Source of the DNA: Endomicrobiaceae bacterium
GTDB lineage: Bacteria > Elusimicrobiota > Endomicrobiia > Endomicrobiales > Endomicrobiaceae
Direction of reading: 5' to 3'
NCBI GenBank assembly: GCA_028711215.1
Contig: JAQTSO010000004.1
Location: 38,653-102,652, forward strand
Length of the DNA stretch: 64,000 nt
Shown here: in pieces, positions 24,282-35,894 of the stretch
Layout of the letters: each line of letters begins with the position of its first letter
Numbering within the stretch: position 1 is the first letter of the stretch
Notes under the pieces: model-generated
What the model was told of the DNA's origin: nothing
Databases searched by the model: none
Seen by the model: the letters and a program-made list of their open reading frames with translations, nothing else
Translations under genes and position numbers: made by a program

Positions 24282-25016
24282 TTATATTTTCTCCACAGAA
24301 TTTTTGTCAACCCAACCGCTGAATCCGTCCAATAAAAGTTTTATATTAACCCATTTTCCTAATTCAAACAAAATTATAACTTTTCTGCCGGCAAAAACTT
24401 CAAATGCCACTTCTTCAGTTTTAATTGGTTTATTTCTTACATAGGTATCTGTTAAAACAATTGCTTCCTGCATTATACACTCATTATTAAATTTAATATA
24501 CATTAACACACCGCTTAATACAAATAATATAAAAAAGAAAATTGAACTTTTAAAAAATATTTTTTGTTTTTTTAAACAATATAAGCCGAAACAAAAAGCC
24601 AAAACCGCAAATGAAACACCTGCTATAACAGTTATTTCATTTAAGGAAACTAAAAACTTTATTTCCTGAACTATAAATTCTGCAATATTAGGGTCAGGCT
24701 CTTTCGCTAATTTTGCCAACAACATTCTGTTGTATTGTATATCTTTATCTCTTGGTACAAGCCTCAAAGCTCTTTCAATATTAACAGAAGCTTTTCCGAT
24801 ATTTCCTATTTTATAATATGCATTTGATAAATTATAAAAAACATAAGGATTATTCAAACCTTCTAAAATCATAATTTCATATTCTTTTACTGCTTGATCA
24901 TAATTTTCTTGCTGATAAAATAATAATGCTTTATCCGTTTGTTCTTGATTTGTGCCGAAAGCATAAACCAGTAAAAAACAAAAAAACAATAGGAAACCGA
25001 TTAATATTTTATTCAT
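24282..25016 (-). CDS. BatE-like TPR/SH3-type membrane protein
   Basis: TPR QQENYDQAVKEYEIMILEGLNNPYVFYNLSNAYYKIGNIGKA; TM pair; SH3-like C-terminus; next to batD. Confidence 0.82.
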   Translation of the reverse strand: MNKILIGFLLFFCFLLVYAFGTNQEQTDKALLFYQQENYDQAVKEYEIMILEGLNNPYVFYNLSNAYYKIGNIGKASVNIERALRLVPRDKDIQYNRMLLAKLAKEPDPNIAEFIVQEIKFLVSLNEITVIAGVSFAVLAFCFGLYCLKKQKIFFKSSIFFFILFVLSGVLMYIKFNNECIMQEAIVLTDTYVRNKPIKTEEVAFEVFAGRKVIILFELGKWVNIKLLLDGFSGWVDKNSVEKI

Positions 25017-26670
25017 AATATTTTCTTAGCTCTTTAATAATATATTTTGTTTTATAATAGTATTTATTCATTTCCAAAACATCAGCTTTTACGGATTTAA
25101 ATTTGAAAGTCTCACACTCTTTTAAAATCCCTGATATTTCTTTTATTAATTCCGGATCCATATCAATTTCATTAAGATTTATTTCTATTTCTCTTTTTGA
25201 CATATTCATATATCCGACACTGGTTTTAGATTGTAAAAATGTTTTTAGAGCAAAATCTAAATTTGTATAAAAATTCACTTGTTCTTCTTTGCATAGATTT
25301 TCATAAGAAGCGTTAAGATACTGCACTGATTTTTTATATGCTTTTATTTTTTGCATTTTTTCATGATCTCTTTCTATATAAATAATGATAATCCTGTATA
25401 TAAAAGAACATATTGCAAACATTGCAAACAAAAACAATATTAACATAAATAATTTATTTTTAACCAGATATCTTTTGTATTGTTTGATTTTTATATTATC
25501 TTTTACGGGTTTAAAAGTCTCTTGTATGATATCGGCATTATTATTTTTGTTATCCTGTTTTCTATCATATACTCCCGGATTTACATTAAATACTATGGGC
25601 GAAGATTTAGTAACAACATAACTTTTAAAATCAGGATCAAAATAAGAAAAAGTAATTTCGGGTATATTTTTTTTACCGCTGATTAACGGAATCAGTATGC
25701 ATCGGAATTTTTTCGAACTAATAACCTCATCTGTATCAATATTAACAAAAGTTGCATATTTTTTGATATCACTTGATAATTCAAAAACCGGCTCAGTTAT
25801 GGAATTAATATTACCGTTACCTTTTATATGTATTGTTAAATTAACAGGTTCGTTTACTTTTACATTAATTTTATTAATAGATGATGTAATATAATATTTT
25901 CCTACAGCACCCGTAAAATTTTCAGGAATATTTTTCTGTGGCAAAGAAAAAACTTTAATTTTAATCGGGTTTGTTTTAAAAGTATATTTATTTTTATTAT
26001 TCAAATATTTAACTTCAACAAGTGACGAATCTATAATTATATTCCCGTCCCTCATAGGATAGAGTTGAGTTGTAACTTTAAATGTAAAATAATTTTCTCC
26101 TCCTATCAATTCATATCCGCTTTTTACATTTGATTTGTTTTTCCAAAAATCTTTAAACATAGGAAGTATATAACTTGGATTTGAATGCAAATCATATCTG
26201 GTTGCAAATTCAAGTGTATAATACACCTGCTGATTAACATATGCTACTTCTGTATCGACATATGCTTTTACAAAAGTATTTTCATCACTCATTGTATAGT
26301 TCGCCTGCACTTTTTGTGTTTTAAGGACATGAACTTCTATTGGACTTGAAACAACTTCTTTTTGATCTGCATCATAAACAGTAACTGAAGGTATTGTAAA
26401 AAAACCGGATGTTTTAGGAGTTATGATATATTCATATGTATATTGACCGTTTTTTCTGTAATTTCTTTTTGACAGAACCAAAAAATCTTCTATTTTAGGC
26501 AGCTGAAATATATCTGAATCTTTAATACTCTCGGATAATTCTACACTTAATTTAATGTTTTCACCTTCAAAAATTTCTCTTTTATCAAGTGAAATATTAA
26601 AAATTTCATTGGCAAAAAGCAAAAACGGAATTAATAAAATAAATAATAAAAAAATAGATTTCTTTAACAT
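25009..26670 (-). CDS. BatD-like (oxygen tolerance) membrane protein
   Basis: Signal peptide, LDKREIFEGENIKLSVEL, NGQYTYEYIITPKTSGFFTIPSV; TM; Bat operon context. Confidence 0.85.
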   Translation of the reverse strand: MLKKSIFLLFILLIPFLLFANEIFNISLDKREIFEGENIKLSVELSESIKDSDIFQLPKIEDFLVLSKRNYRKNGQYTYEYIITPKTSGFFTIPSVTVYDADQKEVVSSPIEVHVLKTQKVQANYTMSDENTFVKAYVDTEVAYVNQQVYYTLEFATRYDLHSNPSYILPMFKDFWKNKSNVKSGYELIGGENYFTFKVTTQLYPMRDGNIIIDSSLVEVKYLNNKNKYTFKTNPIKIKVFSLPQKNIPENFTGAVGKYYITSSINKINVKVNEPVNLTIHIKGNGNINSITEPVFELSSDIKKYATFVNIDTDEVISSKKFRCILIPLISGKKNIPEITFSYFDPDFKSYVVTKSSPIVFNVNPGVYDRKQDNKNNNADIIQETFKPVKDNIKIKQYKRYLVKNKLFMLILFLFAMFAICSFIYRIIIIYIERDHEKMQKIKAYKKSVQYLNASYENLCKEEQVNFYTNLDFALKTFLQSKTSVGYMNMSKREIEINLNEIDMDPELIKEISGILKECETFKFKSVKADVLEMNKYYYKTKYIIKELRKYYE

Positions 26671-29600
26671 TTACCAATCTCTCTGAGTTTCATCTATTTC
26701 CTGCCCTTTTATTTTTTTATCATTTTCCGGCTTATCCATATCACCGTAAAAATTTAAAACCCGGTTCAAATCCTGATTGCCTATTTTTTTACTTTTTGTA
26801 TCACTACTTTGCTCATCCATATCCTCATTTTCTTTTGGATCAAAATCACTGTCTAAATCCGCCATTTCCGCCATTGATTTTTCAAATTCATCAGCCATTT
26901 TATTTTTTTCTGTCTTTAATTGTTCTTCTGTTTTCTTTAATTTTTCAAGTTTATTGTCAGAATCAGATACCTGACTTGCATACATTTTGGATTCTTTATC
27001 CATATTTTTATATTTCATCTTCATTTCATCCATTTTATTTGAACTTAATGCTTGTCCTACTTGAAGTCTCTGATCCATTGTTTTAATCAAATCACTTTCA
27101 GCGGTTTTAATTTTCCTTTCAATATTCGCATTTTTGTCTTCGTTATACTGTCTTCTTAATTTTTCTAATTCCGCTTCAAGTTCTCTTTGTTTCTTTAATA
27201 TTTGATCTAACTTTTCTTTTTCTTTTTGTAAAGCTTCCTGTTGTTTTTTTAATTCCAGGCTTGCAATATCTTTTTCGCTGTTTGCCCATTTTTTACCGTG
27301 CTCAGCTTTCTGTTTATCTTTTTCAACTCCCATCTGGGCTTCCTTGTTTTTGGTCAATTCTCTATTGATATCTTTTATTTTTTTCTGCATTTTCTGCATT
27401 TGTTTTTTTAATTCTGCCGTTTTTTTATCTTTTTCTGTTTCTTGAGGTTTTTTTACTAATTGATTTTCCTCTTTTTCATCTGTTTTTTTATTAATATTTT
27501 GCTTCAGATTTTTTATATTCTCCTCTAACATTTTTTGCTGTTGAATTAATTTATTATTTAATTTTCTGGTTTCTTCCTGTTGCTTTTTTAATTCATTTAT
27601 TGCTTCTTCCTGTTGTTTTTGTTCATCTTTATTTATTTCTTGATTATTAGCTCCACTTTTATCTTGATTTCTCCACATCTCTTTCAATATGCTTTCTTTT
27701 GTTTTATCATTTCCTATGTTCACTTTTTGTTCATTAAGATTTTTAATTTTATTACTGTTTTCATTTATTTCGTTTTGCAAGATTTCCTGTGCTTTTTCAA
27801 ATCTTTCAAATTTTTCAACATTTCTTTCTTTTTTGCTTTCTTTAAATTCATTTATTTTGCTTTCTTCTTTTTCTATTGATTTTTTAATTTCTTCCAATTG
27901 TTTAGATTGTTGCCTTAAATGTTCAAGTCTTTTTTGAGCTGTCACTTTTTCTTTTAAACTTCTGTTTACGGATTCAAGTTCTGAAAGAAGACTTTTTTGT
28001 TCCTGCTTAATTCTAGTTTCTTCTTCTTCCAGTTCTAATTTCTGCTTTTCAAGTCCGGCCATACTTTTATTAATGTCCAAATTATCAGACTTTGCCAATT
28101 TGACTTCAGTTGACTGTGTTTGCTTTTCATTCATACGGATATTTTCAAAAGATTGTTTTTTCTGTTTTTCCAAAATATTTTGAAATCCATCCTTTAACTC
28201 GTTATCTTTAATATCTTTTACTTGTTTTTCCAAATCATTAATATTTGTCTGCAAATACTGTTTGTTATTTATTAAATCTTCTTTAATTTTACTGTTTTTT
28301 TCCTGTTTTATCGTATCTTCCAATAATTGCATTTGCTCTTTATTTTTCTCTATCTGTTTTTCAAGCAATCTTTTATTTTCATTTTTTGTTTTTGCCAATT
28401 CCATATCTATATTTTCATTTAATTTTTTTTCTGTAAGATTTTGTTTTTCTAATAAATCTTTTAAATCTTTCTCTTTCGTATTTTTTCTTAACGTCATTTT
28501 TTTAAGTTCATATTTATTATTCTGTTGCTGTTCTAGAATTTCTTTATTTATTTTCTGTTGCATAGCATCTTCAAAAATTTTTGTTTTTTGATGAAGTTTT
28601 TCCTTTGATTCTATTTGGCGTTGCAGACTTTGCATATTGCGTTGATATTCCTTTGCAATTTCTGATTTGAAGTTTTTCATATCTTCCTTAATTTTTTGAA
28701 AAACTTCTTTTCTTTGATTTTCAATATCCTGTCTATCTTTTTCTATAATTTTTTCCTGACCGGTTAATTCATCTATTTTATCTTGTTGATTTTGATTTTT
28801 GTCCGTTTTTTTCAGTGCCATCTTTTGTGCATTTAATTGCATCTGTTTATTCAAAATTTCATCGTATTTTGCATCCAGTTGTTTTTTTTGTTCATTTAAC
28901 AAAAGTGATTTTTGTTGTTTTTCTGCTATTTTCTCAATCTGTTTATCCATCTGCTGTTTTAATTTTTCAATTTCATTTTTTTGCTCTGCATTTTGTTGTT
29001 CAATAACCGATAATACCTTCTCTTCTATTTTAACCTTAGACTTCTCATCCGCTAAATTTTTTAAGTCTTCAATATTTAACTTTTGCATTTCATTTTTTTG
29101 ATTTTGTTGGACTAATTTATTCTTTTCTTCTTCAAATATTTTATTATATTTATCTAATTCATTTTTCTCAGTTATGTTTTTCAAATTATTGATGCTGTTT
29201 TCCAACAACTCTAATTGCTGATTATATTGATGATTTACAAGTTCTTTTTTGTCAACTGACAATTTTTGCATTAATGTATTATTACTGATTTTTTGTTCAT
29301 ACTGCTGTATTTGGGATAGTTTCTGTTCCATATTTTCAGATTCTTTTTGTTTCAAAAGATTATCATGCTGTTTGTATACATCATTTAAATCTCCTGACAT
29401 AGAATCTATTTTTTCTGTGGTTTGCAGTTGATGATTTAATACATTTTCTTTTATCTCCAGAATATTTTTTTCAAGTTCTGTCCCCATCATTTGACGTTCT
29501 TGTATCAACGATTGGATATTATTTGAAATTTCATCAAGTTTTTGCCTGCTTAACCGTTCCTTGTTTGAGATATCATTTAATTTATCTTTGAGTTTTTCCC

Positions 29601-31038
29601 TTTCTTCTATATTCTGTGTTGAATTAATCTCATTTTCAACATTTGTTTTTTCCTGAGATAATTTTTCTATGGAATTATTCATCAATTGTTGTTGTTGATA
29701 AAGATTTTGCTCTTCACTGATATTCTTTTGTGCAATTTCTTTATTTAATTTTGACATTTCTCTTAAAATTTCCGATTGTTCATTATTTGATTGCTCAAGT
29801 ATTTTTTGTTTTTGAATATTAATCTGTTCAAAAGCATTTTGCACGTACAAATTATCTTTTTGCTGATTTTGCAAAGAATTCTGGGATTGGATTATATCTT
29901 CATGTTCATATTTATATTTTGATTTTTTGTTATCCTTTTCATTCTCCAACGGTGGTACATTATATACTATTTGTTTCTTTTCCTCTTTTTTTTCAATATC
30001 GGAATAATCAATTTGATTTAAATTACGGTATATTACTTCCTTTTCTTCTTCTATTAAAACCTTTTTATCGTCAGCATAGCTCGGAGCAAAATATCCGTCA
30101 ATAATCTTTTTCGGATTTATTACTTTTTCCGGTCTTACTACTTCCTGAAATATATTATCCTCTATTTTTTCCAGCATCTCAACTTTATTGTTGGTTTTTT
30201 TAAAGTTTTCTTTTAATTTTGACTCCAAAATATTTTTTTGTTCTTCCAATTTTAAATTTGCCGTTTTATCTTCTTCACTTAAAGAATTATTTGCAGATTT
30301 TTGAATATTATCTTCACTTTGTTTTGATATTGTTTTTTCCAATTCCTGTTTTTGTGCCAAAAGGTTTTGTTTTTCCTGCAATAAATATTGCAAATCATCT
30401 TTGATATATTTTGTATTAAGCTGTTTTTTTTCAGCAATAGCTGTAGCTATTTTTGCTACTTCTTCATTTTTAACCTGTTTTTCTGAACCCACCTCCTTTA
30501 AATTGCCGGTAATTTTTGTTTCTTCTTCTTCTATTTTATTTTTTTGTTCATTTAAATCTTCTTTGAATGCTTCAGCTATTTTTGCTATTTCTTCATTTTC
30601 CCAAATCAAATTCATGATATATTCGATATTGTACATTGCATCCATATCAATAGGATTAAGAAATAGAGTAAGCTTGTAATACTCTAATGCTTTATCATAA
30701 TCGTCATAAAGAAAATAAATATTGCCTATGTTATAGTATATTTCTGATTTTTCCAAATTATTTATTTTGCCTTCCTGCAGTATTTTTTCATATACAGCTA
30801 AAGCCTCTTCATAATTTGAAATTTTATATTTTAAATTTGCGTAATTAAATTTGAGAATATAATCATCTGTTTTTCTTTTTAACATTTTTTTAAATTCTGT
30901 TTCAAAATCTTTAAAATTACCGTTTTTCAGTTCTTCTACTGCACGGTTGTTTATTTTTTTAATACTTATAAAATAGTTATATGAAATAACCATCACAAAA
31001 GTTAATATAAGAAATACAAATATTTTAAATTTATTCAT
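26671..31038 (-). CDS. Giant TPR plus coiled-coil protein at the BatC position (~1455 aa)
   Basis: N-terminal TM and TPRs (YYNIGNIYFLYDDYDKALEYYKLTLFLNP), then over 1200 aa of K/E/Q-rich coiled coil. Start refined to MNKFKIF (SD GAGAGG); the ORF track extends to 31080. Confidence 0.85.
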   Translation of the reverse strand: MNKFKIFVFLILTFVMVISYNYFISIKKINNRAVEELKNGNFKDFETEFKKMLKRKTDDYILKFNYANLKYKISNYEEALAVYEKILQEGKINNLEKSEIYYNIGNIYFLYDDYDKALEYYKLTLFLNPIDMDAMYNIEYIMNLIWENEEIAKIAEAFKEDLNEQKNKIEEEETKITGNLKEVGSEKQVKNEEVAKIATAIAEKKQLNTKYIKDDLQYLLQEKQNLLAQKQELEKTISKQSEDNIQKSANNSLSEEDKTANLKLEEQKNILESKLKENFKKTNNKVEMLEKIEDNIFQEVVRPEKVINPKKIIDGYFAPSYADDKKVLIEEEKEVIYRNLNQIDYSDIEKKEEKKQIVYNVPPLENEKDNKKSKYKYEHEDIIQSQNSLQNQQKDNLYVQNAFEQINIQKQKILEQSNNEQSEILREMSKLNKEIAQKNISEEQNLYQQQQLMNNSIEKLSQEKTNVENEINSTQNIEEREKLKDKLNDISNKERLSRQKLDEISNNIQSLIQERQMMGTELEKNILEIKENVLNHQLQTTEKIDSMSGDLNDVYKQHDNLLKQKESENMEQKLSQIQQYEQKISNNTLMQKLSVDKKELVNHQYNQQLELLENSINNLKNITEKNELDKYNKIFEEEKNKLVQQNQKNEMQKLNIEDLKNLADEKSKVKIEEKVLSVIEQQNAEQKNEIEKLKQQMDKQIEKIAEKQQKSLLLNEQKKQLDAKYDEILNKQMQLNAQKMALKKTDKNQNQQDKIDELTGQEKIIEKDRQDIENQRKEVFQKIKEDMKNFKSEIAKEYQRNMQSLQRQIESKEKLHQKTKIFEDAMQQKINKEILEQQQNNKYELKKMTLRKNTKEKDLKDLLEKQNLTEKKLNENIDMELAKTKNENKRLLEKQIEKNKEQMQLLEDTIKQEKNSKIKEDLINNKQYLQTNINDLEKQVKDIKDNELKDGFQNILEKQKKQSFENIRMNEKQTQSTEVKLAKSDNLDINKSMAGLEKQKLELEEEETRIKQEQKSLLSELESVNRSLKEKVTAQKRLEHLRQQSKQLEEIKKSIEKEESKINEFKESKKERNVEKFERFEKAQEILQNEINENSNKIKNLNEQKVNIGNDKTKESILKEMWRNQDKSGANNQEINKDEQKQQEEAINELKKQQEETRKLNNKLIQQQKMLEENIKNLKQNINKKTDEKEENQLVKKPQETEKDKKTAELKKQMQKMQKKIKDINRELTKNKEAQMGVEKDKQKAEHGKKWANSEKDIASLELKKQQEALQKEKEKLDQILKKQRELEAELEKLRRQYNEDKNANIERKIKTAESDLIKTMDQRLQVGQALSSNKMDEMKMKYKNMDKESKMYASQVSDSDNKLEKLKKTEEQLKTEKNKMADEFEKSMAEMADLDSDFDPKENEDMDEQSSDTKSKKIGNQDLNRVLNFYGDMDKPENDKKIKGQEIDETQRDW

Positions 31039-32023
31039 TTTCATCCTCTCTTTTAAAAATTGATAGATAAAAAGATACACAAAACAAAATAAAAGCTATA
31101 AACAAAAATATCTGATATTGTTCCTCTCGTTTAACTTCTTTGCTTATTTCATCTTTTGATTTATCCAAAGAATGGGCTATTTGCAATATTTTAAAAATAC
31201 TGTCCTGGCTCTCAGAAAGATTTATATACTCTCCGCCGGTTTCATCCGAAATATACTGTAATGTTTGCTCATCAAGTCTTGTTATCACAGTATCGCCTTT
31301 TTCATCCTTCATATATTCATTGTTACTTACAGGTATTTTTGTTCCTTCGGTATTACCTATACCTATTGTATATATTTTAGTTTTATGTTTTTTTGCCTTT
31401 TCTATCAATACATGTAATCCGCTGTCATCATCTTCACCGTCCGTTACCAAAATAATCGCCTTCGCTCCCTCCGGTATATCAACCGTGCTGTTTAAAGCTA
31501 AATCGAGAGCTTTTGATATTTTTGTGCCGCCTAACGGCACATCATCGGGATTTAAAGTGTTTAAAAAATTATTCGCTGAAACCACATCGGCAGTAATCGG
31601 ACATTTCCAAAATGCGGAACCTGCAAATACAACTATTCCTATCTTGTTACCTTTAAAACCGGCTATTAAATTTGATAATGAAGCTTTTGCTATTTCTAGC
31701 CTGTTTGGTTTTAAGTCCTCTGCCAACATACTCTTGGAAACATCCATAACTATTACAATTGTAGCAGCTTTCTTTGAAACAATTATGGTTTTTACTCCAA
31801 ACTTAGGATTTGATAAAGCTATTATCACAAAAAATATACTGACTAACAGAAGAATATTTTTTAATTTATATCTGTTAATATTTATACCGGTTGTTTCATT
31901 AAACATCTTAAATGTCATGAATTTTGAAATATTTTTTTTCTTTTTATAAAAAAAATAAAATAAGAAGATTGCCATAAAAGGAATCAAAAGCAATAAAATT
32001 AAAAATTCTTTATTTTCAAACAT
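31031..32023 (-). CDS. VWA domain membrane protein (BatB-like)
   Basis: MIDAS DVSKSM, VTDGEDDDSGLH, flanking TMs. Confidence 0.9.
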   Translation of the reverse strand: MFENKEFLILLLLIPFMAIFLFYFFYKKKKNISKFMTFKMFNETTGININRYKLKNILLLVSIFFVIIALSNPKFGVKTIIVSKKAATIVIVMDVSKSMLAEDLKPNRLEIAKASLSNLIAGFKGNKIGIVVFAGSAFWKCPITADVVSANNFLNTLNPDDVPLGGTKISKALDLALNSTVDIPEGAKAIILVTDGEDDDSGLHVLIEKAKKHKTKIYTIGIGNTEGTKIPVSNNEYMKDEKGDTVITRLDEQTLQYISDETGGEYINLSESQDSIFKILQIAHSLDKSKDEISKEVKREEQYQIFLFIAFILFCVSFYLSIFKREDENE

Positions 32024-32024
32024 T

Positions 32025-33026
32025 TTATGTTAATTTCCTTAAAAAAATATTTTCCAACAATATTTTCACCATTATCATTATAAATAACAGCATTATAAAT
32101 TTGTAAAAAATATCCTGATATAAATTAAACTTTAACGATTTCATATCAGTTTTTTCCATTTCATCAATCTGGGCAATAATTTTTCCCAACATTTCTGTAT
32201 TATCCGCCCTGAAATACTTACCGTCGGTAATTGAAGCTATTTCTTTAAGAGTATTTTCATCAAGATCCTGTTCCTCTATCTTTACAAATGTCATTCCTTG
32301 AACAGGATCCATAACCTGATAATATGAGCCTTCCGGATCTCCTGCACCTATAGTGTATATTTTGATATTAAAATTCTTGGCAATTTCGGCAGCAGTTATA
32401 GGATCTATCTCTCCTATATTGTTTGAGCCGTCGGTAATAAGAATAATAACTCTGCTTTTTGCTTCGCTTTCTTTTAGTCTGTTACAAGCCGTTGCTATTG
32501 CAGAGCCTATTGCGGTCCCGTCTATTGAACTCATACCTATTTTTGCCGACATTAAAGTATTTGCTACAGACATTATGTCATTTGTCAGCGGAGCCTGAGT
32601 AAAAGCAAGTCCGGCAAACAAAACTATTCCTACTCTGTCATATTTTCTTGTTTTAACAAAATCAACCGCGATTTTTTTTGCTGCTTCCAATCTATTAATA
32701 GGTTTAAAATCCAACGCTTCCATACTTGAAGAGATATCCAATGCAATCATTATATCGGTACCCTGATTTAAAACATCATCTGTTTTTTCGCCGATTTGCG
32801 GTCTGGCAAGCGCCAAAATAAAAATAGCTATTATCAGATAATTAATTATCATTAGCAGTTTTGTATATATTTTTATCTTATTGGATAATCTGGTCTGTTT
32901 AACTATATCGTACCTTGAAAAGTTTATTAAGTTTTTATTTCTGTTCTTATTTTTAACGTAATTGTAAATTTCTATTATAAGTACCAAAGGAAACAAAATT
33001 AAAAATACTGGCGTAGCAAAATGCAA
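32025..33026 (-). CDS. VWA domain membrane protein (BatA-like)
   Basis: MIDAS DISSSM, ITDGSNNIGEIDP, flanking TMs. Confidence 0.9.
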   Translation of the reverse strand: MHFATPVFLILFPLVLIIEIYNYVKNKNRNKNLINFSRYDIVKQTRLSNKIKIYTKLLMIINYLIIAIFILALARPQIGEKTDDVLNQGTDIMIALDISSSMEALDFKPINRLEAAKKIAVDFVKTRKYDRVGIVLFAGLAFTQAPLTNDIMSVANTLMSAKIGMSSIDGTAIGSAIATACNRLKESEAKSRVIILITDGSNNIGEIDPITAAEIAKNFNIKIYTIGAGDPEGSYYQVMDPVQGMTFVKIEEQDLDENTLKEIASITDGKYFRADNTEMLGKIIAQIDEMEKTDMKSLKFNLYQDIFYKFIMLLFIMIMVKILLENIFLRKLT

Positions 33027-33044: not shown

Positions 33045-33962
33045 CTAAAATTTTTCTATTATTTCTCTAGTTTGTTTAAAACTTTCCCAAAAATCCTCAT
33101 TACTTAAATTTCCTGTTCCGGTATATTTCACTTGATCATACCTTTCAAACAATAAAGAAATTTCATTAAAATATTTATTGAATATATTACCATCAGCTCT
33201 TATTAAGTCTAATAATTCTGTTGTTGTTATTTCTTTTTTTATGTCTAATGTGTCAGTGATAAAATGATTCAAGATATTACTCAACTCAAAATAATGTTCT
33301 TTTATTTTTTCATTGGAGATTAGATATTTCATATATAATCTATTCAAATTTTTTATGGCTTTTTCTTTACAAGTAAATACATATTCCGGCTTTATCAATT
33401 TTGATATTTTTACAATCACAAGATGTCTGTAAACGACAAATATTACAAATAATCCGTAGAATAAGGCGATATAATAGTATAAATGCGTAATATTCATCTT
33501 CTTAAATTGCTTAATATCTCTTATATCGGAAAAATTGTTATCTTTAAATATATTTTTGATATTAACCAATACAGAATTACTAAAAAAATAAAATATTTTA
33601 GGATTAGAATCATTTATCTCGTCTTTGTTAATATAAGAGAATCTTACCGGAGGTATGCCTCTTATTCTGCTGTCAAATGTTGTTATTTTCAAACCTACAA
33701 TATATTTTCCCTCAGTCGTTATATCTTTTTTAAATGATAACTCCTGAATATCCCATCCGGGAATTAAAATATTTTCTTCCGCCTGCAAAAGATCAACAAA
33801 ATCGGGAATAAACACTTCAATCCTAGCCTGTATTGGTTGTCCTATCGTTATCTCTGTTTTATCTGTGGTCAAATCGGCACTTGGAAATGTTACAAAAGCC
33901 AATATTGACCCGCAAAACAAAAACAGAAAATTTAGAATAAGTATTATTTTATATCTATTCAC
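33045..33962 (-). CDS. BatD-like / DUF4381-type membrane protein
   Basis: TM, beta-rich extracytoplasmic segment, TM and cytoplasmic domain; between DUF58 and batA. A GTG start (GTGAATAGATATAAA) just after the DUF58 stop is more likely than the ORF-track start at 34034. Confidence 0.65.
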   Translation of the reverse strand: MNRYKIILILNFLFLFCGSILAFVTFPSADLTTDKTEITIGQPIQARIEVFIPDFVDLLQAEENILIPGWDIQELSFKKDITTEGKYIVGLKITTFDSRIRGIPPVRFSYINKDEINDSNPKIFYFFSNSVLVNIKNIFKDNNFSDIRDIKQFKKMNITHLYYYIALFYGLFVIFVVYRHLVIVKISKLIKPEYVFTCKEKAIKNLNRLYMKYLISNEKIKEHYFELSNILNHFITDTLDIKKEITTTELLDLIRADGNIFNKYFNEISLLFERYDQVKYTGTGNLSNEDFWESFKQTREIIEKF

Positions 33963-33966
33963 TTTG

Positions 33967-34854
33967 TTATCCCAAAACAGTTTTTCTCTGCCTGTTTGCA
34001 AAAAATTTTGAAAGTTGCGGCAAATAATTGGCACCTGTCATTATATTTATTACATCTACAGAACTTTTGGCAAACATTTTTTTTCTTTGTTCATCCAAAT
34101 ACTGTATTTTATGATAATAATCTGTTATCATTCGTCTATCGGAAGAATCTATCGTAAAAACTTTATTTCTCTCAGGGTCATAAAAATCTATCATGCCGAC
34201 CCTAGGCAATCCCTTTTCTTTCGGATCGGAAATATTTACGCAGATCAAATCATGTCTTTTCGCTGTTAATTTTAAATCTTTTTCATAGTTTATGTCCTGA
34301 AAATCCGAAACTAAAAAAACAACTGCTTTTCTTTGCCATATTTCATTTATTGCTTTCAGTCCGACAGATATAGATGTTTTTGTACCCTTAGGTTTAAAAT
34401 GTAATAATTCTCTTATCATTCTCAAAATATTATTTTTACCTTTTTTAGGTCTGAGCACCTGTTCTATCTTGTCCGTAAAAGATAACATTCCGACCATGTC
34501 ATTATTTTTAATTGCAGAAAAAGCAAGCACTGATACAATTTCTGCAGCCAGTGACATTTTTGTCTGGTCAATACTTCCAAAAGACAAAGATGCAGACATA
34601 TCTATTAAAAATATAACCGTCATTTCCCTTTCTTCGGTAAAAACTTTAATATACGGTTTTTGATGCTTTGCAGTAACATTCCAATCTATATTTCTTATAT
34701 CATCGCCGTATTGATATTCTCTGACAGAATCAAATTCCATACCTCTGCCTTTAAACGTACTGTGATACTTACCGGCAAGGCCGCTGTTTACCAAACGGTT
34801 AGATTTTATTTCTATTTGCCTTATCTTTTTTTTTAAGATATCTTTTGTATCCAT
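33967..34854 (-). CDS. DUF58 domain protein
   Basis: GKYHSTFKGRGMEFDSVREYQYGDDIRNIDWNVTAKHQKPYIKVFTEERE. Confidence 0.95.
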   Translation of the reverse strand: MDTKDILKKKIRQIEIKSNRLVNSGLAGKYHSTFKGRGMEFDSVREYQYGDDIRNIDWNVTAKHQKPYIKVFTEEREMTVIFLIDMSASLSFGSIDQTKMSLAAEIVSVLAFSAIKNNDMVGMLSFTDKIEQVLRPKKGKNNILRMIRELLHFKPKGTKTSISVGLKAINEIWQRKAVVFLVSDFQDINYEKDLKLTAKRHDLICVNISDPKEKGLPRVGMIDFYDPERNKVFTIDSSDRRMITDYYHKIQYLDEQRKKMFAKSSVDVINIMTGANYLPQLSKFFANRQRKTVLG

Positions 34855-34873: not shown

Positions 34874-35869
34874 CTAAGGAATCGGTATTTCTGAAAATAT
34901 CTGTTTAATAATATCATCTGATTTTAATGATTCAGCCTCTGCTTCATAAGTTGTTATTATTCTGTGTCTCAAAACATCCAACCCTATTGCCTTTACATCT
35001 TCAGGTATTACAAAACCTCTGCCCTGCAAAAAAGCATAGGCTTTAGATGCAAGTGTTAAATTTATTGTTGCTCTCGGAGAAGACCCGATTGATATAAGAG
35101 GTTTTAAATTATCTAATCCGTATTTTTCCGGTTGTCTTGTGGCAAACACAATGTCAACTATATAATCTTTAACCTTTTGATCAACATATACCTCATTTAC
35201 CAATTCTTTAGCTTTTTGAATATCTTCCAAAGCTAAAACCGGTTTTGTTTTCATTTTTTTATTTTTAGTCATTCTGTCAAGAATAATTCTTTCTTCTTCA
35301 ATATTGGGATAAACAACATTTAACTTTAACATAAATCTGTCAAGTTGTGCTTCCGGCAAAGCATAAGTTCCTTCCTGTTCTATCGGATTTTGGGTCGCCA
35401 TAACTAAAAAAGGCGAAGGAAGTTGATATGTTGTATCACCAATCGTTACCTGTCTTTCTGCCATAGATTCAAGAAGAGCACTTTGGACTTTTGCAGGAGC
35501 TCTGTTAATTTCATCTGCTAAAACAATGTTTGTAAATATCGGACCCTTTTTAACGGTAAAATCAGATTTCTGAGGATTATATATCATTGTTCCGATCAAA
35601 TCAGCCGGTAATAAATCCGGTGTAAATTGTATTCTTTTAAAATCTGCCTGAATCGCATTGGCTAAAGAATTAACCGATAACGTTTTTGCAAGACCGGGAA
35701 CTCCTTCCAATAAAATATGCCCGTCAGCCAGTAATCCGATAAGCATTCTCTCTATTACATATTTTTGCCCGACCACAACATTTGCTATTTCGTCCACAAT
35801 TTTTTTTATTTCAAGTCCTTCTTTATGTATTTTCTCATCCAATTCTTCAACACTGATTTTATCTTCCAT
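34874..35869 (-). CDS. MoxR family AAA+ ATPase
   Basis: LEGVPGLAKTLSVNSLA, FTPDLLPADLIGT, LADEINRAPAKVQSALLESMAE, ATQNPIEQEGTYALPEAQLDRF. Start refined to MEDK (SD GGAGGGG). Confidence 0.96.
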   Translation of the reverse strand: MEDKISVEELDEKIHKEGLEIKKIVDEIANVVVGQKYVIERMLIGLLADGHILLEGVPGLAKTLSVNSLANAIQADFKRIQFTPDLLPADLIGTMIYNPQKSDFTVKKGPIFTNIVLADEINRAPAKVQSALLESMAERQVTIGDTTYQLPSPFLVMATQNPIEQEGTYALPEAQLDRFMLKLNVVYPNIEEERIILDRMTKNKKMKTKPVLALEDIQKAKELVNEVYVDQKVKDYIVDIVFATRQPEKYGLDNLKPLISIGSSPRATINLTLASKAYAFLQGRGFVIPEDVKAIGLDVLRHRIITTYEAEAESLKSDDIIKQIFSEIPIP

Positions 35870-35894
35870 GTACCCCTCCAAAAAATACAATATT

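Follow-up and report, generated by a model that had tools for sequence, protein, structure and literature searches.

A 1455-residue BatC homologue with a long coiled-coil insert in a Bat operon of Endomicrobiaceae

What does a protein of 1455 amino acids (aa) do at the place in a Bat operon that belongs to BatC, a protein of ~204–480 aa, or of 550–650 aa where BatB and BatC are fused? The question is raised by a single uninterrupted frame of 1455 codons on the minus strand (26671–31038) of a 64,000-nucleotide stretch of contig JAQTSO010000004.1, here called the window. Its source, genome G000, is a 2.2-Mb metagenome-assembled genome (MAG) of the Endomicrobiaceae, Elusimicrobiota, from the same genus as Ca. 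Proruminimicrobium. This genus comes from anaerobic digestors and is basal to rumen Endomicrobia (PMC11257099). The original prediction, made from the window alone, read the frame as a BatC whose charged, Q/K-rich tail had expanded into a rod.

The frame first opens at GTG 31080, and its start was taken as ATG 31038, which is preceded by a Shine–Dalgarno-like GAGAGG 6 nt upstream; an alternative ATG at 31044 is too close to this element. The spacing therefore makes 1455 aa the right length for the protein. In the second species of the genus, Ca. Proruminimicrobium quisquiliarum (G001, JAHDRN010000007.1), the orthologue is 62% identical across all 1455 residues, and the giant open reading frame (ORF) is therefore neither a product of chance nor an assembly error. 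The complete and tightly packed operon reads MoxR, DUF58, a transmembrane (TM) protein, BatA, BatB, BatC, BatD and BatE on the minus strand; MoxR, DUF58, two VWA proteins with a metal ion-dependent adhesion site (MIDAS), BatD and BatE were all found. The giant gene overlaps or abuts both BatB (VWA) and BatD, which confirms the predicted position of an uninterrupted ~1455-aa protein between a BatB-like VWA protein and BatD.

The two ends of the protein

An N-terminal TM segment followed by a few tetratricopeptide repeats (TPRs) had been predicted, and hydropathy (maximum 2.3 at residues 6–24), a Pfam TPR match (PF00515, 4.4e-8, residues 99–129) and AlphaFold2 (AF2) agree with this. AF2 places TPR helices at residues 42–55, 60–72, 76–89, 94–110, 114–127 and from 132 onward, with a predicted local distance difference test score (pLDDT) of 71–92. 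The best NCBIfam match of residues 1–150 is TPR_BatC_Lepto (NF047507; 2.1e-18, 66.6 bits), a Leptospira-specific model with a cutoff of 175, below which the giant falls; the full-length protein has no NCBIfam match. Across the family, searches with residues 1–150 find BatC at this place in the operon. By operon position and N-terminal sequence homology, the protein is assigned to BatC.

The C-terminus had been described as a distinct tail, but turned out to be the ordinary conserved BatC terminus, which closes with [D/N]W. Residues 1416–1455 are 88% identical to those of G001, with a non-synonymous substitution rate (dN) of 0.057, and the final 30 residues are near-invariant among the giants. 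A terminal W is present in 35 of 36 BatC with an intact 3' end, the sole exception being G024 at a contig end, compared with 3 of 434 other ORFs of the same loci. For [D/N]W, the counts are 29/36 and 2/434, and the few W-ending control ORFs may include BatC fragments or fusions. All 21 further BatCs or BatB–BatC fusions from Flavobacteriaceae, Bacteroidales, Chlorobiota, Omnitrophota and other Elusimicrobiota likewise end in [D/N]W, although two of them repeat sequences already counted. In a profile–profile comparison, the giant tails match those of mid-length BatC with an E value of 1.7e-4. Two results weigh against this homology: the comparison with short-type tails alone gives an E value of 0.54, and a hidden Markov model (HMM) of small-BatC tails, run in HMMER, failed to distinguish giant tails from shuffled ones. 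Because the plain tail HMM failed, tail homology is argued from the terminal position, the frequency of W and the profile–profile comparison. On position and motif rather than score alone, the C-terminus is identified as the conserved terminus of the BatC family.

Since both ends are those of a conserved BatC, the expansion is an insertion between them. As predicted, it lies in the region that forms a charged linker in ordinary BatC; it is enclosed by conserved sequence, however, and is not a lengthened tail. The giant shares with the BatC of Bacteroides aerotolerance operons the position between BatB and BatD, the N-terminal hydrophobic segment, the type of TPR, a charged linker and the C-terminal [D/N]W; it differs in its length, the long coiled coil and an extra conserved module. 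Given homologous ends and position, the small size and short linker of ordinary BatC, which the giant lacks, do not define descent. One subunit that grew more than six-fold, from ~220 to ~1,450–1,600 aa, with both ends kept, suggests that BatC works through its TPRs and its terminal [D/N]W peptide and that distance or a scaffold between its ends can be functional.

In the BatC sampled from Elusimicrobiota, Omnitrophota, Chlorobiota and Bacteroidota, the last two residues are almost always [D/N]W, which is possibly an unrecognised interaction motif. No description of this near-universal terminus was found, and a possible binding role is directly testable. More speculatively, the VWA MIDAS or the TPRs of BatC or BatE might bind the terminal peptide as a ligand.

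The insert

The main part of the insert (residues ~405–1415) is rich in K, E, Q and N and contains ~1 proline per 1000 residues. COILS gives P > 0.5 for 71% of residues 150–1415, compared with 36 ± 6% (maximum 48%) in local shuffles, which serve as the control for the scoring table, as the program was re-implemented (28-residue window, weighted) with a retyped MTIDK table. Averaged over the aligned giants, hydrophobic periodicity has its maximum at 3.64 residues, with a power of 3.18 and a shuffle maximum of 2.22. The coil is broken near residues 826–850, 950–976, 1112–1135 and 1327–1345. AF2, which was applied to the protein except for residues 434–825, predicts helices in the C-terminal part at 827–850, 856–912, 916–945, 949–981, 987–1109, 1138–1188, 1201–1327 and 1334–1397. 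The giant BatC is a long α-helical coiled-coil protein that scores above composition-matched shuffles and has breaks. Of the more than 1200 aa of heptad-like coil that had been proposed, coil prediction thus holds over most of the length, whereas continuity does not, because the breaks and a module at ~298–395 interrupt it.

This non-coil module is among the most conserved parts of the protein (dN 0.08 between G000 and G001), with 95% identity to G001 over residues 301–360 and ~60% to another genus. COILS values are ~0 over residues 301–363, and the AF2 pLDDT is mostly below 50. In a pattern search, its signature VVRPEKV was seen only in giants.

The gene is AT-rich, the linkers of ordinary BatC vary in length (proteins of 209–480 aa), and the giant coil of G028 contains a 216-bp (72-aa) tandem repeat of ~2.7 copies with 89% matches (L041:2107–2690). 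This repeat suggests how such a coil may grow, in this case recently and by 72-residue units. All three features are in line with neutral growth, in which replication slippage in a low-GC gene would have lengthened the charged linker without any specific role. The coil is, however, nearly free of indels over ~1000 residues at 36–65% identity: the coils of G011 and G020 (65% identity, 1030 aligned residues) show none between residues ~414 and 1451, and those of G000 and G011, at 36% identity, have gaps of only 7, 1, 1, 6, 2 and 1 aa within ~405–1400. The remaining indels among giants cluster at residues ~240–265 and 389. Hydrophobic coil positions are kept in 70–85% of cases at 32–58% overall identity. 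Between G000 and G001, the coil has a dN of 0.28 and a synonymous rate (dS) of 1.7, which is near saturation, and a dN/dS of ~0.16. The window copy has no detectable protein-level repeats, and the giant is retained in two to three genera. Neutral expansion was rejected as highly improbable on this pattern of indels and substitutions. As judged from these alignments, the giant form is real, under purifying selection and conserved in length.

With moderate confidence, the giant BatC is proposed to act in the periplasm as a coiled-coil spacer or scaffold, which would hold its terminal peptide at a distance from Bat complexes or between them. The main rival to a spacer is a coil that folds back into antiparallel hairpins or bundles, in a spectrin-like manner, and surrounds the Bat complex with a compact, local scaffold that has no long reach. 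The predicted helices of 24–127 aa with breaks of 3–6 residues (e.g., 856–912/916–945, pLDDT ~90 in part) would suit such folding, as would a hydrophobic periodicity of 3.62–3.70, unlike the 3.5 of a pure heptad, and the narrowness of the periplasm. Two segments of ~125 aa are nevertheless predicted as single helices, and a low predicted template modelling score (pTM) does not fix how the helices pack. This compact arrangement is considered possible, but rather unlikely.

The spacer proposal also has to be weighed against several adverse points. AF2 confidence is modest in two models (mean pLDDT 65 and 69; pTM 0.33 and 0.22), and a PDB fold search with the C-terminal model matched no solved fold (best E value 0.7). 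The periplasm, moreover, is far narrower than 165–180 nm, and an extended coil could not stand across it. Too long to span an ordinary periplasm, the coil would have to run along the envelope, fold back on itself, or do both. The rod of ~180 nm that had been proposed stands only as an upper bound, because the helix breaks allow fold-back and hairpins are possible alongside the non-coil module. About 1100 helical residues, all collinear, would span ~165 nm, supposing that the helical content of residues 434–825 matches what the COILS profile indicates.

Topology and possible role

An extracytoplasmic location, originally suggested by the single TM, is likely from homology. The paralogous 219-aa BatC of G000 bears a signal peptide (by eye). 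In BatB–BatC fusions, the TM–TPR part of BatC follows the last TM of BatB, which places the TPRs on the VWA side. Experiments on BB0173, a BatA-type VWA protein, located its VWA domain in the periplasm (PMC5700661). By analogy with these three cases, the TPRs and coil of BatC are likely periplasmic.

The orientation of the window protein does not follow from its TM, whose flanks carry equal positive charge (+2/+2), a point that counts against the periplasmic placement. This charge balance would also allow an N-out, C-in signal anchor with a cytoplasmic coil, which would tether MoxR or cytoskeletal partners instead of periplasmic ones; MoxR and DUF58 of this operon are presumably cytoplasmic. 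Such a topology is improbable, considering the signal peptide on the short paralogue of the same genome, the side on which the fusions put the TPRs, and the giants of the sister genus, whose TM flanks carry +2/3 on the N-terminal side versus 0 or −2 on the C-terminal side.

We infer for the giant BatC a periplasmic side, oligomerisation, partner binding and a spacer role. The short, disordered, charged linker of BatC would have given way to the non-coil module and ~1000 aa that are helical and for the most part coiled coil. Anchored in the inner membrane by its TM, the protein would expose its TPRs to the periplasm, next to the VWA domains of BatA and BatB, which MoxR would drive from the cytoplasm. 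Probably as an oligomer and with some fold-back, the coil would act as a length-constrained spacer or scaffold and present the terminal peptide (and the module) to a partner distant from the core complex. Alternatively, it may cross-link several Bat complexes along the envelope. A doubtful extension of the spacer proposal is that a length-constrained periplasmic rod makes the MoxR–VWA (Bat) complex a long-range scaffold or ruler, with the terminal peptide held far from the membrane complex, or links many complexes into an envelope-wide filament; no description of such a structural role for any Bat system was found in the literature searched.

Thermotoga Omp-alpha and TolA domain II are membrane-anchored, extended periplasmic helices that serve as spacers; they resemble the giant BatC in this description, but differ from it in operon and ends. 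In Leptospira biflexa, bat deletion had no detectable effect on growth, morphology or oxidative-stress tolerance, and it was concluded that "Bat function remains elusive" (PMC3557215). The giant BatC offers a new handle on the function of this widespread, poorly understood membrane machine.

Distribution, relatives and neighbouring genes

Intact giant orthologues of 1443, 1507 and 1575 aa were found in two genera, and fragments, one of at least 1597 aa, in a third. Among the 77 genomes of the family, giants occur in genus g1 (2/2), genus g11 (2/2) and three members of genus g9 (G028, G024 and G034), in all three of which a contig end cuts the gene short; in G009 and G018, g9 genomes of high completeness, only the short type was seen. 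No orthologue at this position pairs a short BatC with a coil in a separate gene. Neighbouring lineages have BatC of 305–480 aa. This mid-length BatC of other Endomicrobiaceae shares with the giant an uncleaved TM anchor, TPRs and an NYY...DW tail, but has a linker 3–6 times shorter.

A quick tree of MoxR, DUF58, BatA, BatB and BatD, the inner forks of which are uncertain, gave three separate clades by short, giant and mid-length BatC. The short-BatC clade (219–271 aa) comprises g1, g4, g9, g11 and the long-branched G008, while the giant clade, on a long stem of 0.48, comprises g1, g9 and g11. The mid-length clade (305–480 aa, other genera) is sister to the giant clade, with a Shimodaira–Hasegawa-like approximate likelihood ratio test (SH-aLRT) support of 99. 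G000 itself contains another, canonical Bat operon (L034:4065-4724 and surroundings, G000:C65) with MoxR, DUF58, BatA, BatB, the 219-aa BatC and BatD; BatE was not detected beside it within the stretch fetched. Contamination, which amounts to 8.8% in this MAG, was rejected as its source, because the near-clean G001 (100% complete, 1% contamination) also carries both operons. The operon of the giant BatC is a diverged, second Bat operon present alongside the canonical one, and a division of labour within one genome becomes testable.

No further giant BatC was found in 341 Elusimicrobiota, 285 Omnitrophota and 198 Bacteroidota genomes by surveys that detect BatC via its TPR end at set E cutoffs, which diverged copies can escape. 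The longest frames among the matches listed were 909 aa in the Omnitrophota and 631 aa in the Bacteroidota genomes. The giant is a bona fide BatC with an insert seen nowhere else in the genomes searched.

Several candidates for longer BatCs were discarded. Frames of 550–650 aa in other Elusimicrobiota were, in those checked, BatB–BatC fusions; an 816-aa frame of G047 is actually a 209-aa BatC; and a 1112-aa Omnitrophota frame, judged by eye, encodes an unrelated TPR protein that resembles spermidine synthase in its N-terminal part. BatB–BatC fusions of ~550–590 aa, with the DW terminus kept, recur in several Elusimicrobiota families (L065, L084-L091), and one was reported for L. biflexa (PMC3557215).

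A second giant BatC paralogue, in g11, is present in G011 (1104 aa, L037:166-3480) and G020 (partial, L039:1-582), where it follows BatE and is accompanied by a separate copy of the small TM protein. It has a TM, TPRs, a long middle and an ...NDW end, but the middle of the G011 protein is not detectably homologous to the main coil, and BLAST matches are confined to the N-terminal ~250 residues.

The features of the giant BatC and its operon are collected in Table 1. BatE is followed by genes matching the cytidylyltransferase (nadD-like), HD (yqeK-like), LytR_C and RsfS families.

Table 1. Features of the giant BatC and its operon, in window positions
Feature	Position	Strand	Basis
Giant BatC, 1455 aa, whole gene	26671..31038	-	ORF, start site, orthologues
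N-terminal TM anchor, residues ~6-30	30949..31023	-	hydropathy, AF2 helix 2-39
~3 TPRs, residues ~42-150	30589..30915	-	Pfam TPR_1/TPR_12, AF2, TPR_BatC_Lepto
Proximal helical/coil segment, residues ~132-298	30145..30645	-	AF2 helices 132-244, 256-300
Conserved non-coil module, residues ~299-395, QEVVRPEKVINPKKII...EEKKQIVYN...SKYKYEHEDII	29854..30144	-	conservation, COILS, AF2
Main coiled-coil/helical region, residues ~405-1415	26794..29826	-	COILS, alignment, periodicity, AF2
BatC C-terminal motif, residues 1416-1455, ...DLNRVLNFYGDMDKP...QRDW	26674..26793	-	conservation, terminal W
MoxR AAA+ ATPase	34874..35890	-	family match
DUF58 protein	33967..34854	-	family match
TM protein between DUF58 and BatA	33045..34034	-	recurs at same position
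BatA, VWA, MIDAS DxSxS intact	32025..33026	-	family match; motif readable
BatB, VWA, MIDAS DxSxS intact	31031..32023	-	family match; motif readable
BatD	25009..26670	-	PF13584, 8.5e-28
BatE, TPR + SH3	24282..25016	-	family match

The TM protein at 33045–34034 has no match in Pfam or NCBIfam. It occupies the same place in most Bat operons of the family and may be a protein with a BatD-like domain. In g9, the short-type Bat operon has an additional large protein of 870–912 aa between DUF58 and the small TM protein (L049:9417-12155, L050:735-3347); by eye, it resembles a Sel1-like/TPR repeat protein with a charged C-terminus.

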